Assembly (NCBI GenBank): GCA_028698335.1
Contig: JAQVDP010000008.1
Location: forward strand, 1 to 64,000
Direction: 5' to 3'
From: Nevskiales bacterium
Lineage (GTDB): Bacteria; Pseudomonadota; Gammaproteobacteria; Nevskiales; Nevskiaceae
DNA: 64,000 nucleotides
Shown: piece by piece, positions 5,271 through 50,334 of the stretch
Numbering within the stretch: position 1 is the stretch's first letter
How the letters are laid out: each line of letters starts with the position of its first letter
Position numbers and translations under genes: made by a program
Notes under the pieces: generated by a model
What the model was told of the DNA's origin: nothing
Databases searched by the model: none
What the model saw: only the letters and a program-made list of their open reading frames with translations

Positions 5271-7475
5271 TCAGAACGTAAACTGCGCGCCGAAACTAAC
5301 GTAACGCCCAGCATGGGCGAGCGCCGCCAGTTGCGGATCGCCTGCAGAACGTCCGTAGACATCACTCCACTCCCAGTACCGCCGATCGAACGCGTTGAAC
5401 ACACCGGCACGCAGCGACACGCGCGGAGCCGGAAAATACTCGCCCGTAATGTCGACCACGGCATGGCCCGGCGCCCTGAACTGCGGCGTGCCGGTGTCAT
5501 CGGCGGGGTCTCGGCTGTCCACCGCCATCAAGCGCAGGCGCAGAACACTGCGCGTGGTGCAGCGATCTACCGAGAGTACCAACTTGGCCGGCTCGACGCC
5601 CGGAAGTGGCTGTTCGGTGTCGCGGTCCTCACCGCGCAACCAGGCTCCAGCAAGTTCGGCACTCCACCCGGGAGCGACGAAGAACTCCAGATCCTGCCGC
5701 CAGTTCAGCTCGATCCCACGAATCCACGCGCGTTCGATATTACGGGACTGGAAAAGGCGGGTGCCCGTATCCGGATCGACGCCGATGAAACTGTTGCTAA
5801 GAATGAAGTCACGGTAGCGCGTCTCGAACATGCTCAGCTCGGCCTGGGCCCGGGCGCTGCGATAGCGCAGACCAAGTTCGACTGCCGCACTGTGCTCTGG
5901 ACTAAGATCGGGATTTGGCAGCGCCTGGGCGTTCACGGTGGGCAGATCAAGGCCCAGATTGACGTCAAAAGCTGGTGGAGCGCGGAAACCTTGCGTGTAC
6001 TGCGCAAATCCACGCAGGTCCGGAGTCATCCGGTAGAGCAGGCCGAGGCGCGGCGTCCACGCATCGTTGCGCAAATCTGTAACGCCCACATGCGGCGAGC
6101 CGCTCTCGAATCGCGGATCGGAATGCGCATCAAGCCGATAGTAGTCATAGCGCACACCCGGGAGAAGGGTCAACGCCGAGCCTGGCGCCCGCAGCTCAGC
6201 AGTGACATAGCCCCCCAGATCAAATGTGTCGGTGTTCGGAAAATCACGGCGCGGAAAAGACTCGCCCAGGAGCACCGTCGTCCGGCTGCCATCCTCGAGA
6301 TCAGTCTGTACAGCGTCGCGGCCCTCCTGCAGATGCCCGGCCGTGCCCTCAATGCCGTAACCCAGCGTCTGCGTCCACCCGCTCCTGCTCAGTGGTTGGC
6401 GCACGTCGATCCCAAATCCGGTCACGCGCTGGCTGAATTCGAAGACCCGCTGCTGGCGTACCGGCGGATCAGCCTGTTGCCGATATTCGTCCGTTTCCTG
6501 GGTCACCCAGGCACGTGTCGCATAGACGCGCCAGAGCACACGGCGACGCCCCGCCGGCGCGGACTGCTCGAACTCGGCACCAATGCGCCAGGCGTCCTGC
6601 GCATCATCGGCAGCCAGGGCAGTGGTGTTGATGAATCGCCCCTGCCCAAGGAGTGTCTGCACCTCCGTGTCGCGCTGGACCTGACCGTAATCGGCAAGCA
6701 GGCGCAGGGTGCCAGTGCCGGCGACCAGATTGGACTTGAACAGAGCCGAGTCACGGCGCCAGCTCTGCCGGTCGACGGGATCGGCGCCGGCGGTATCAAG
6801 TTCGTGTCCCTGACGGCGGGCCAGGGCCAGCAGTGCACCGCCTCCGGACCACCCCCATGCCTGCGCCATAGAGGCGCCAAGCTGGTCCCGGTCACCTGCG
6901 TACAGACCGAGCACACGCCCACCGCGCCCGGATGCTCCTATCAGGTCCTCCGGATCAAGCGTCTCGACTGCCACGACACCACCTAGTGCCCGGCTTCCGT
7001 AGAGACTGGACGCAGGCCCACGCAGCACCTCCACTTCACGAACCAGGCCAAGCTCCGTGTAGTCACGGCCGCTGTCCGCATACGAACCAACACTGAACTG
7101 CTCAGCAACGGGGATGCCGTCTACGAGGGTCAGCACGCGATTGCCTCCCAAGCCACGGATACGGAACCCGCCGCCTCCGAAGCGAGTACCGCCACCATCG
7201 ACCTGGATCGCCGGCTCGTACCGGAACATCTCGCGCAGGTCCGCCGCCAGCTCGGACTGTGCAGTTTCCGCACTGAGCACTGACACCGATGCCGCCACGT
7301 CCCAGACTGCACCCGGATGACGCGTGGCGACGACGACGATCGGATCAAGCGCTGCCGGCGCACCCTCTCTTTCTGCATGGACCGCGCCCGCAACCAGCCC
7401 GCCCAGCAACACTACCGCCCGCGCTGCGAGCGCGTAGGCAACCGTTCGCCTCGGCCCCCGGTCAATAAACGTCAT
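5271..7475 (-). CDS. TonB-dependent outer-membrane receptor, hemoglobin/heme receptor type
   Basis: The 734-residue product has an N-terminal signal peptide ending near VAGAVHA, a TonB box-like stretch (DPIVVVATR) and a plug domain. The plug has the motif [20 protein letters not shown] and then [20 protein letters not shown] beta-barrel ends in an aromatic residue (FGAQFTF). The plug motif is the one shared by hemoglobin, transferrin and lactoferrin receptors and heme receptors such as HasR or PhuR. The ligand is inferred, not shown. The ATG lies 14 bp inside the end of nirS, so the two are almost certainly co-transcribed and perhaps translationally coupled. A strong terminator follows. It may import heme or another porphyrin for the nitrite reductase, or be a bystander; the overlap favours a link. 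Confidence 0.85.
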
Positions 7476-48801: not shown

Positions 48802-50334
48802 TCAGTGCGCCGCACCCTCGGTGCGCTGCGTGTTGACGCGCACCCGGGCGACATCGTCGGCACTGACGGCGGGCCCCTTGTTGCCCCAGCTGTTCATCAC
48901 GAAGGTGAGGATATTGGCCACTTCGTCGTCGTTGAGCTGACTCATTGGCGGCATCACCGAATTGAAGCTGGCGCCGTTGACGGTGACCGGACCGGTGAGG
49001 CCGTTCAGCACGATGCCAATGGCACGCTTCGGATCCGCCATCAGGAAATCCGATCCGGCCAGCGGCGGAAACACATCGGGCAACCCCGCACCGTTGTCCT
49101 GATGGCAGACCGAGCAGGTGCCGTTGTACAGCGCGGCACCGGCCTTGATCTGCTGATCAAGGGTCATCTCGCCACTGGCCGCGGCTTCGGCCGCCACCGT
49201 CACCGCGGCCAGATCGGCCGCCTTGTCGCCCAGATAGACCGAGTCCACTTCCTTGCCGGAGTAGATCGTCTTGTCCTCGGGACCGTCGACCTTGAGGATC
49301 GCCAGCGCGCCCTTGTTGAATGCACGGAAGATGGAGTGATCCACCAGCACGTAGCTGCCGGGCACATCGACGTGGAACTCGGTGATCGCTGCACCTCCGG
49401 CCGGGATCAGCGTGGTCTGTACGTTTTCCTGGTAGTAGGTTCCTCCCTCATAGCGCACCCGGTCGAAAATCTCGCCGATGACGTGGAAGCTCGACACCAG
49501 ATTCGGCCCGCCGTTGCCCACGTACAGCCGCACGGATTCGCCGACATTGGCCTTGATCGCGTGATCGCCGACCAATGCGCCTTCGGAGCCGTTGAACAGC
49601 ACATAGGTCGGGTTTTCGTCGATCGCCTTCTGCATGTCGAAGGGCTGCAGCCCTTTCTCACGATATTTGCCAACGGTGTAGAAATCGCCCTGGACGACGT
49701 AGTACTCCTTGTCGACCGGCTTCATGCCCTCCGGCGGCTCCACCAGAATCAGGCCGTACATGCCGTTGGCGATGTGCATGCCCACCGGCGCCGTTGCACA
49801 GTGGTAGATGAACAATCCCTGGTTCAGCGCCTTGAACGTGAACTGCGATTCGTGGCCTGGCGCCGTGAAACTCGACGCCGCGCCGCCGCCCGGTCCGGTG
49901 ACGCCGTGCAGATCGATGTTGTGCGGCATCTTCGACGACGGATTGTTCTTCAGATGAAACTCCACCGTATCGCCCTGGCGCACGCGGATGAAGCTGCCGG
50001 GCACAGTGCCACCGAAAGTCCAGAAGGTGTACTTGACGCCTTCCGAGATTTCCATCTCCTGCTCGATGACCTCCAGCTCGACGATGACCTTGGCCGGATG
50101 ATCGCGTCCGGTTGGCGGCGGCACGTTTGGCGGGCTGGTCAGCACCGCACGGACCGGCTCACCCTGCGGCGGGCCGAAATCTCCTCGTGTCGTGCCGGTG
50201 ACTTCACTCGCCGGGGTCGACGGCGGGGCGGCCTGCGGCGGCTGACCGGAGGACTCCCGGGCGCCGTCGCAAGAGACCAGCAGCATCGCGACGAGCAGCG
50301 TGGGCAGGATTCGATGTGCGCGATCGTTCGACAT
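48802..50334 (-). CDS. nirK: Copper nitrite reductase NirK with C-terminal cytochrome c domain, lipoprotein
   Basis: NirK reduces nitrite to nitric oxide. The 510-residue protein has a lipoprotein signal with lipobox LVSC (Cys22), two cupredoxin domains and an added cytochrome c domain. Copper residues are visible: MPHNIDLHG (type 1 His, catalytic Asp, type 2 His), [11 protein letters not shown] (type 2 His, type 1 Cys and His) with a following Met, FHVIGE and VDHSIF. The cytochrome domain has CSVCH at 407-411 and VMPPM as Met-ligand loop. Three-domain NirK of this order is known from Ralstonia pickettii. I chose the ATG at 50334 behind GAGGAG; longer frames run into norZ antisense-free coding. 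It lies 20 bp after norZ. Confidence 0.93.

Follow-up and report, generated by a model that had tools for sequence, protein, structure and literature searches.

The gene nirS, a widely used marker of denitrification, encodes cytochrome cd1 nitrite reductase (NirS), the cofactor of which is heme d1. In the canonical nir cluster, for which we take that of P. indica with gene names assigned by homology and gene order, nirS is accompanied by nirC, nirF, nirD, nirL, nirG, nirH, nirJ, nirE, and nirN. For P. aeruginosa, it has been proposed that a NirF-NirN-NirS complex, attached to the membrane and located outside the cytoplasm, completes heme d1 synthesis and inserts the cofactor into periplasmic NirS, NirN not being essential for active enzyme (PMC3694632). 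In the case of pyrroloquinoline quinone (PQQ), bacteria with PQQ enzymes and no PQQ synthesis obtain PQQ from outside, which in E. coli is achieved via the TonB receptor PqqU (PMC12124388). Here, we analyzed the first 64 kb (hereafter the window) of a 220,622-bp contig (JAQVDP010000008.1) from a Nevskiales bacterium, of which the genome is 4.30 Mb and 99.54% complete; the window carries a nirS gene (7462..9549, minus strand) overlapped by the gene of a TonB-dependent receptor. The NirS core, ligand, and active-site residues are the same as in the canonical cluster, while searches of the genome yielded no NirF, NirN, or NirJ, a TonB receptor gene is present instead, and NirS carries an extra N-terminal cytochrome c domain. 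As with PQQ and PqqU (PMC12124388), the enzyme is present, the cofactor would not be made by the cell, and a TonB receptor is proposed here as the supplier; unlike in that system, the cofactor is a tetrapyrrole and the receptor gene is linked to the enzyme gene. The notable feature is a clade of receptor-linked NirS in genomes without detected heme d1 genes, rather than the pairing of NirS with the copper nitrite reductase NirK, on which a preliminary description of this DNA had focused.

A self-sufficient nirS denitrifier carries nirF and nirJ, and usually nirN, in its genome, and the bacterium studied here falls outside this group. A search of its genome with PF02239, which also detects NirF and NirN, returned NirS only and no NirF or NirN, while the NirJ model gave nothing over the cut-off (best 43.3 of 515 bits). 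The helix-turn-helix model of siroheme decarboxylases (PF22451, for nirDLGH) gave one match in this genome at 24.3 of 27 bits, a model which also rings in 8 of 14 control genomes; in relatives, nirDLGH was searched in the available locus flanks only. Because NirF, NirN, and NirJ were not found, the known heme d1 pathway is broken here and NirS is not self-sufficient by this pathway. The preliminary description had itself counted an absence of heme d1 genes from the genome against its claim, and for NirF, NirN, and NirJ this absence is what we found. As well, a relative assembled as a single 3.2-Mb contig (G043, 98% complete) possesses NirS alone by PF02239 and no NirJ. When loci were grouped as lacking (d1-less) or having (d1+) the heme d1 genes, whole-genome searches placed NirJ over the cut-off in none of 63 d1-less NirS genomes (48 + 15) as against 22 of 23 d1+ genomes (2/2 and 20/21), and 59 of the 63 d1-less genomes had no second strong D1 propeller. 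For 14 of the d1+ loci (L120-L133), the label rests on d1 genes present in the flanks instead of the genome search for NirJ. L116 (the same locus as L076) and L106 (nirS cut by the contig end) were left out of the counts, the latter being kept for the genome counts of NirF and NirJ. Comparison of the P. indica d1 genes with the flanks (up to 10 kb) of nirS genes encoding two cytochrome domains revealed a d1 cluster in L078 only and a nirE-like gene in L080.

The nirS open reading frame (ORF) extends from 7462 to 9609, and behind its Met at 9549 comes a stretch that looks by eye like a signal peptide. In the numbering of this ORF, the protein consists of an extra cytochrome c domain (residues 60-137), the usual cytochrome c domain (207-281), and the d1 propeller (318-710), as assigned by PF00034, PF13442, and PF02239. 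It scored 474.9 bits against the Cytochrom_D1 model and 858 bits against P. aeruginosa NirS in the PDB over residues 179-715, and, with a cytochrome c domain, a d1 propeller, and His182, His327, and His369, it is a cytochrome cd1 NirS. The extra domain, which was overlooked in the preliminary description, is 51% identical over 107 amino acids to the C-terminal cytochrome of the NirK in the same window, and, after NirS chains, the match of which lies in another region, the cytochrome domains of three-domain NirK rank best among its PDB matches. Two CxxCH sites before the propeller are present in 54 d1-less loci and in L078, with record titles mostly of Gammaproteobacteria (metagenome-assembled genomes, MAGs, and isolates). 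A C1-C2-NirS of Chloroflexi, likewise with an extra cytochrome c domain ahead of NirS, was called unique to that phylum in PMC8756737, where a related domain was also reported with NirK. Contrary to this uniqueness, the architecture recurs in the 55 loci above, the comparison being one of domain order.

The NirS of d1-less loci is conserved. His51, His182, His327, His369, and Trp498 are kept in 62/62 aligned d1-less and 37/37 d1+ NirS, and 177 of the 224 columns fixed in d1+ NirS (L128 left out) are equally fixed in d1-less NirS, with only three below 60%. Between the window and the related isolate Sinimarinibacterium sp. CAU 1509, the ratio of nonsynonymous to synonymous substitution rates (dN/dS) is 0.063 for nirS, 0.142 for the receptor gene, and 0.154-0.209 for four neighboring genes, and NirS is under strong purifying selection. 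The kept catalytic residues and the low dN/dS argue against decay, and against an inactive nirS, which the preliminary description had named as an outcome that would count against its claim. Inactivation through a Ser-Leu-Glu-His change near the active site was also considered and ruled out, since the His of FLHDGGW, at the His327 position, is kept. This His matches His327 when counted from the C-terminus, and PDB chain 1hzu, which we take to be the H327A mutant of NirS, has Ala at it.

The receptor gene (5271..7475, minus strand) runs in the same direction as nirS, the 3' end of which it overlaps by 14 bp, and had escaped the preliminary description. It encodes a TonB-dependent outer-membrane receptor of 734 amino acids, with plug and beta-barrel (PF00593/PF07715), which is of heme type and is proposed here as a heme d1 importer. 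The receptor scored 316.9 of 323.75 bits against TIGR01786 and 314.1 of 316.85 bits against TIGR01785, and so lies outside both heme/hemoglobin families by their cut-offs; three of six related receptors scanned from other loci (L046, L057, and L076, of type A below) exceed the cut-off for at least one of them. A profile built from 33 nirS-linked receptors matched PhuR (8the) in the PDB at 557 bits, followed by ShuA at 186 and PqqU at 69 bits; PhuR, to which the similarity extends over the whole length, was also the top Foldseek match of the AlphaFold model (template modeling score 0.85/0.87; predicted local distance difference test score 86.8). The receptor is not a PqqU (NF041535, 43.2 bits vs the cut-off of 1200). 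Unlike PhuR, it has no heme-ligating His/Tyr pair, as the PhuR ligands, which we take to be His124/Tyr519, align with Gly136 and Asn506. A reading of this loss as a sign of d1 specificity was dropped, since sister receptors that are not linked to nirS share it. Within the genus (n = 11, with at most 19 candidates scored per genome), the three genomes with nirS gave receptor matches above 200 bits, and the remaining eight gave none.

PhuR-like receptors without nirS occur at six further loci (L145-L150); several of them lack the presumed heme ligands, and their neighboring genes resemble, by eye, those of heme or iron uptake. The window also contains a second, distant TonB-dependent receptor gene (55028-57334, minus strand), which scores best, under the cut-off, with a siderophore-type model and adjoins a gene for a SnoaL-like protein (54460-55017).

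The linkage seen in the window is repeated in relatives. Of the 62 d1-less loci, 48 have a TonB receptor gene within 300 bp of nirS and 57 have one within 2.5 kb, as against 0 of 37 d1+ loci at either distance; among the rows without a receptor match, 11 have flanks shorter than 2.5 kb, three of these being d1-less. Only 10 further TonB genes were met 2.5-8 kb out in d1-less loci (552 kb in total), so the closeness does not come from TonB genes being common. Because the receptor profile had been built from TonB ORFs of these same loci, a separate Pfam scan was made of the 49 ORFs of at least 500 amino acids that lie up to 2.5 kb from d1+ nirS, and no TonB model appeared among the 25 families listed (of 29) at 1e-9, nor among the 25 listed (of 43) at 1e-5. 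For the five d1-less loci that gave no match, the same scan covered six large ORFs and revealed one missed receptor, in L037. This is a TonB barrel gene (L037:4655-6967, plus strand; PF00593, 89.3 bits) located about 3 kb upstream of the d1-less nirS, which the receptor profile did not pick up.

A class sample of 370 genomes, chosen regardless of NirS, included 82 with a match and nine with a single match. In all six single-match genomes with a match of NirS strength (E < 1e-140, frames of 722-789 amino acids), including those that carry the window and L076, the receptor gene is within 277 bp of nirS; the other three (G455, G489, and G496) have weaker matches. No receptor was found in the flanks of the 14 d1+ loci from this sample, nor in those of L078, which alone among the two-cytochrome NirS has d1 genes. 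Three receptor types were distinguished, namely type A (PhuR-like; the window and most loci), type B (Halieaceae, L105, and two Bdellovibrionales MAGs), and type C (L035, L036, L051, L065, and L079). The best models of the six type A receptors scanned are heme receptor families, and that of the five type B receptors scanned is a heme receptor, below the cut-off. The genes occur in five arrangements, i.e., receptor-nirS, nirS-receptor, divergent, convergent, and an opposite-strand order with 2-kb spacing in six Halieaceae loci. In many d1-less loci, including Halieaceae, a porin-like gene of PF13372 (Alginate_exp) stands directly beside nirS (e.g., L067:12122-13363, plus strand), which is not the case in the window.

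Upstream of nirS and the receptor gene, an FNR/DNR-like box is present at 9625..9638 (minus strand) with one mismatch to the consensus that we assume for it (p 0.005 for the region, single-base shuffles). By the same shuffles, an FNR-like box at p < 0.05 was found in 24 of 48 shared nirS-receptor units, where about 2.4 would be expected, as against a Fur-like box in 4 of 48, with the same expectation; control of the receptor by Fur, which we had considered, receives no support from this count. Judged by these numbers of boxes, the receptor seems to belong, as a partner, with anaerobic nitrite reduction more than with the response to iron starvation.

Intact NirS, missing d1 genes, and a heme-type receptor gene overlapping nirS suggest that the cell takes heme d1, a costly cofactor, from its neighbors. 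We therefore propose, as a reading that we moderately favor, that periplasmic apo-NirS is loaded with heme d1 scavenged by the linked receptor, the ligand being the weakest step. nirS and the overlapping receptor gene would form one transcription unit behind the FNR-type box. The cell would make and export NirS and attach its two c hemes, with no heme d1 of its own. Denitrifiers that make d1 would release heme d1, or a nearly finished d1 tetrapyrrole, and the receptor would carry it through the outer membrane to apo-NirS in the periplasm. Since NirS is periplasmic, an inner-membrane transporter would be unnecessary. Loaded NirS would then reduce nitrite to nitric oxide, for which the added cytochrome c domain may serve as a built-in electron entry point, and where NirK is present, NirK would be the self-sufficient enzyme and NirS would be used when d1 is available. 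The reconstitution of apo-NirS with heme d1 is the subject of a title in the reference list of PMC3694632, and d1-free NirS, which is more open, has been crystallized (PMC7278500). With insertion into periplasmic NirS as proposed, NirN not essential, and d1-free NirS obtainable as crystals, delivery of heme d1 to the periplasm by a receptor could suffice. Whether the whole NirS clade, mostly Gammaproteobacteria, depends on heme d1 of others, with three TonB receptor types recruited to bring intact d1 to apo-NirS, is a wider claim which we regard as evenly balanced.

Several observations weigh against scavenging. Among d1-less genomes, G077 has a NirJ-like match below the cut-off (142 bits), and four genomes without NirJ (G067, G092, G097, and G106, with loci L043, L068, L073, and L102), which were nevertheless counted as d1-less, encode a further strong D1-propeller protein (295-507 bits), which may be NirS again or resemble NirN. 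In other genera of the family, sister PhuR-like receptors are met without nirS, those of genus g6 lacking the same heme ligands, and this family of receptors is therefore not bound to NirS as such. A clear FNR box is missing from half of the shared units, five of the 62 d1-less loci (three with short flanks) show no receptor up to 2.5 kb away, a siderophore model is the best match of both type C receptors scanned, and the PF13372 neighbors mean that other nirS partners exist. In a tree of 99 NirS rows, a single clade of 64 (support 94, not starred) unites the d1-less rows with two d1+ rows, L078 and L093, the flanks of the latter being too short to judge a receptor. Only two independent contrasts exist on this tree; locus counts are therefore not event counts, much of the association is shared descent, and Fisher values for the linkage were not used as probabilities. 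Finally, G780, with a single-cytochrome NirS outside the clade, has no detected NirF, NirN, or NirJ and, by the same profile, no TonB receptor nearby. In a phylum sample of 396 genomes, 47 of which had a match, no further single-match genome besides G780 was found, and it stands outside the linkage counts. Its genome is 2.6 Mb and rated 100% complete, and its nirS (L151, G780:C9:205500-224500) adjoins, by eye, molybdopterin-oxidoreductase-like and cytochrome-like genes.

These points leave room for other explanations. Heme d1 might be made by an unrecognized pathway, the receptor importing iron, ordinary heme, a metal, or something else; d1 is a proposed ligand, and the sister receptors without nirS have neighbors that, by eye, suggest heme or iron uptake. 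Such a pathway would have to replace NirF, NirN, and NirJ altogether, NirJ divides d1+ from d1-less genomes (22/23 vs 0/63), and the receptor tracks the missing pathway rather than NirS as such (0/37 d1+ loci), so that we hold this explanation to be unlikely. The linkage might also have nothing to do with the cofactor and reflect, for example, anoxic uptake of heme iron under the same FNR control, with which the FNR-like boxes upstream of the unit agree. Neither the receptor-free d1+ nirS loci (0/37) nor L078, which has d1 genes and no receptor, would be explained in that case, and this too appears unlikely.

The resemblance of the type A and B receptors scanned to heme receptors would also fit a NirS clade that uses another tetrapyrrole (e.g., heme b or siroheme) obtained via the receptor, possibly with changed activity. 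The d1 domain bears no mark of a cofactor change, however, given the 177 of 224 equally fixed columns and the retention of His182, His327, His369, and Trp498 in 62/62 sequences. A heme-making cell, as which we regard this bacterium, needs no heme import for its c-type cytochromes, and import of ordinary heme would thus be needless; the use of another tetrapyrrole is likewise unlikely. Least credible of all, and very improbable, is that NirS is an acquired or left-over relic, unloaded and inactive, while NirK does the work. The undetected NirF, NirN, and NirJ and the lower G+C content at third codon positions of nirS (0.73) and the receptor gene (0.70) might point to a relic, yet the dN/dS of 0.063 and the catalytic residues kept in all 62 sequences do not, and 41 of 49 two-cytochrome NirS genomes have no NirK over the cut-off that could do this work.

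NirK itself is encoded at 48802..50334 (minus strand), with a lipoprotein-like signal by eye. It scored 362.9 bits against TIGR02376 (cut-off 296.3) and 822 bits, over residues 50-502, against the three-domain NirK 3ziy, which we take to be from Ralstonia pickettii, and with its C-terminal cytochrome c it is a three-domain copper nitrite reductase without notable difference from that protein. Next to it are genes for a nitric oxide reductase NorB, of quinol type by domain content (50355..52655, minus strand; PF22085, 242 bits, and PF00115), the iron-sulfur repair protein YtfE/RIC (52645..53382, minus strand; NF008221 and TIGR03652, over cut-off), and an Rrf2-family regulator, probably NsrR (53597..54148, minus strand; PF02082, 127.6 bits). 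An NsrR-like palindrome (53392..53414, plus strand) precedes ytfE-norB-nirK, with one mismatch to the consensus that we presume and no matches in 100 shuffles. On its other side, nirK adjoins the gene of an FGE-sulfatase domain protein (48012..48863, minus strand; PF03781), which has homologs near nirS in four Arenimonas loci and of which the true start is probably further in than the ORF start, because the ORF overlaps nirK, followed by a SCO1/SenC-like gene (47419..48015, minus strand; PF02630). In the Arenimonas loci L041, L045, L048, and L059, nirS and nirK lie within a few kb together with FGE-sulfatase-like and SCO1-like genes, which also accompany nirK in the window. The matches to NirK and NirS are about 1.7-1.8 kb apart on one contig in four Arenimonas genomes. 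Upstream of nirS, a gene for an MMPL/HAE3-type resistance-nodulation-division transporter (9916-12300, minus strand) was found, and a homolog is located upstream of nirS in CAU 1509.

The preliminary description had reported nirS and nirK as both full length in one segment, and this holds, the two minus-strand genes being 39 kb apart. Misassembly, which it had wished to see excluded, was ruled out as an explanation, and a chimeric join is unlikely, since CAU 1509 shows much the same layout, with the nirK match at C22:87655-88554 and the nirS match from C22:127042, about 38.5 kb between them on one contig. Its statement that the two genes stand under different regulators agrees with the FNR-like box before nirS and the NsrR-like box before ytfE-norB-nirK, while the rarity that it gave to the pair was overstated. 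Co-occurrence of both genes is already known and not very rare: both were reported in 5.3% of assemblies (PMC10999283) and in ten organisms among 652 genomes (PMC4250227). The pair was therefore set aside as the novelty, NirK being over the cut-off in only 8 of 49 two-cytochrome NirS genomes. Where both enzymes are present, it is plausible that NirK works always and NirS when d1 is obtainable.

Among the literature matches listed (titles and starts of abstracts, with few subscription papers), no report on heme d1 uptake or on linkage of nirS with a TonB receptor was found, a search that did not extend to the supplements of PMC10999283, which possibly list d1-less NirS clades. The linked receptor is a candidate d1 transporter, which is testable in cultured environmental isolates. 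If the scavenging of heme d1 proves true, heme d1 would join the redox cofactors, such as PQQ, that are obtained through a TonB receptor, and would be a shared cofactor of the community. Provided that the clade needs scavenged d1, its activity would depend on its neighbors, nirS counts would overstate the number of self-sufficient denitrifiers, and gene-based estimates of nitric oxide and nitrous oxide would need correction.

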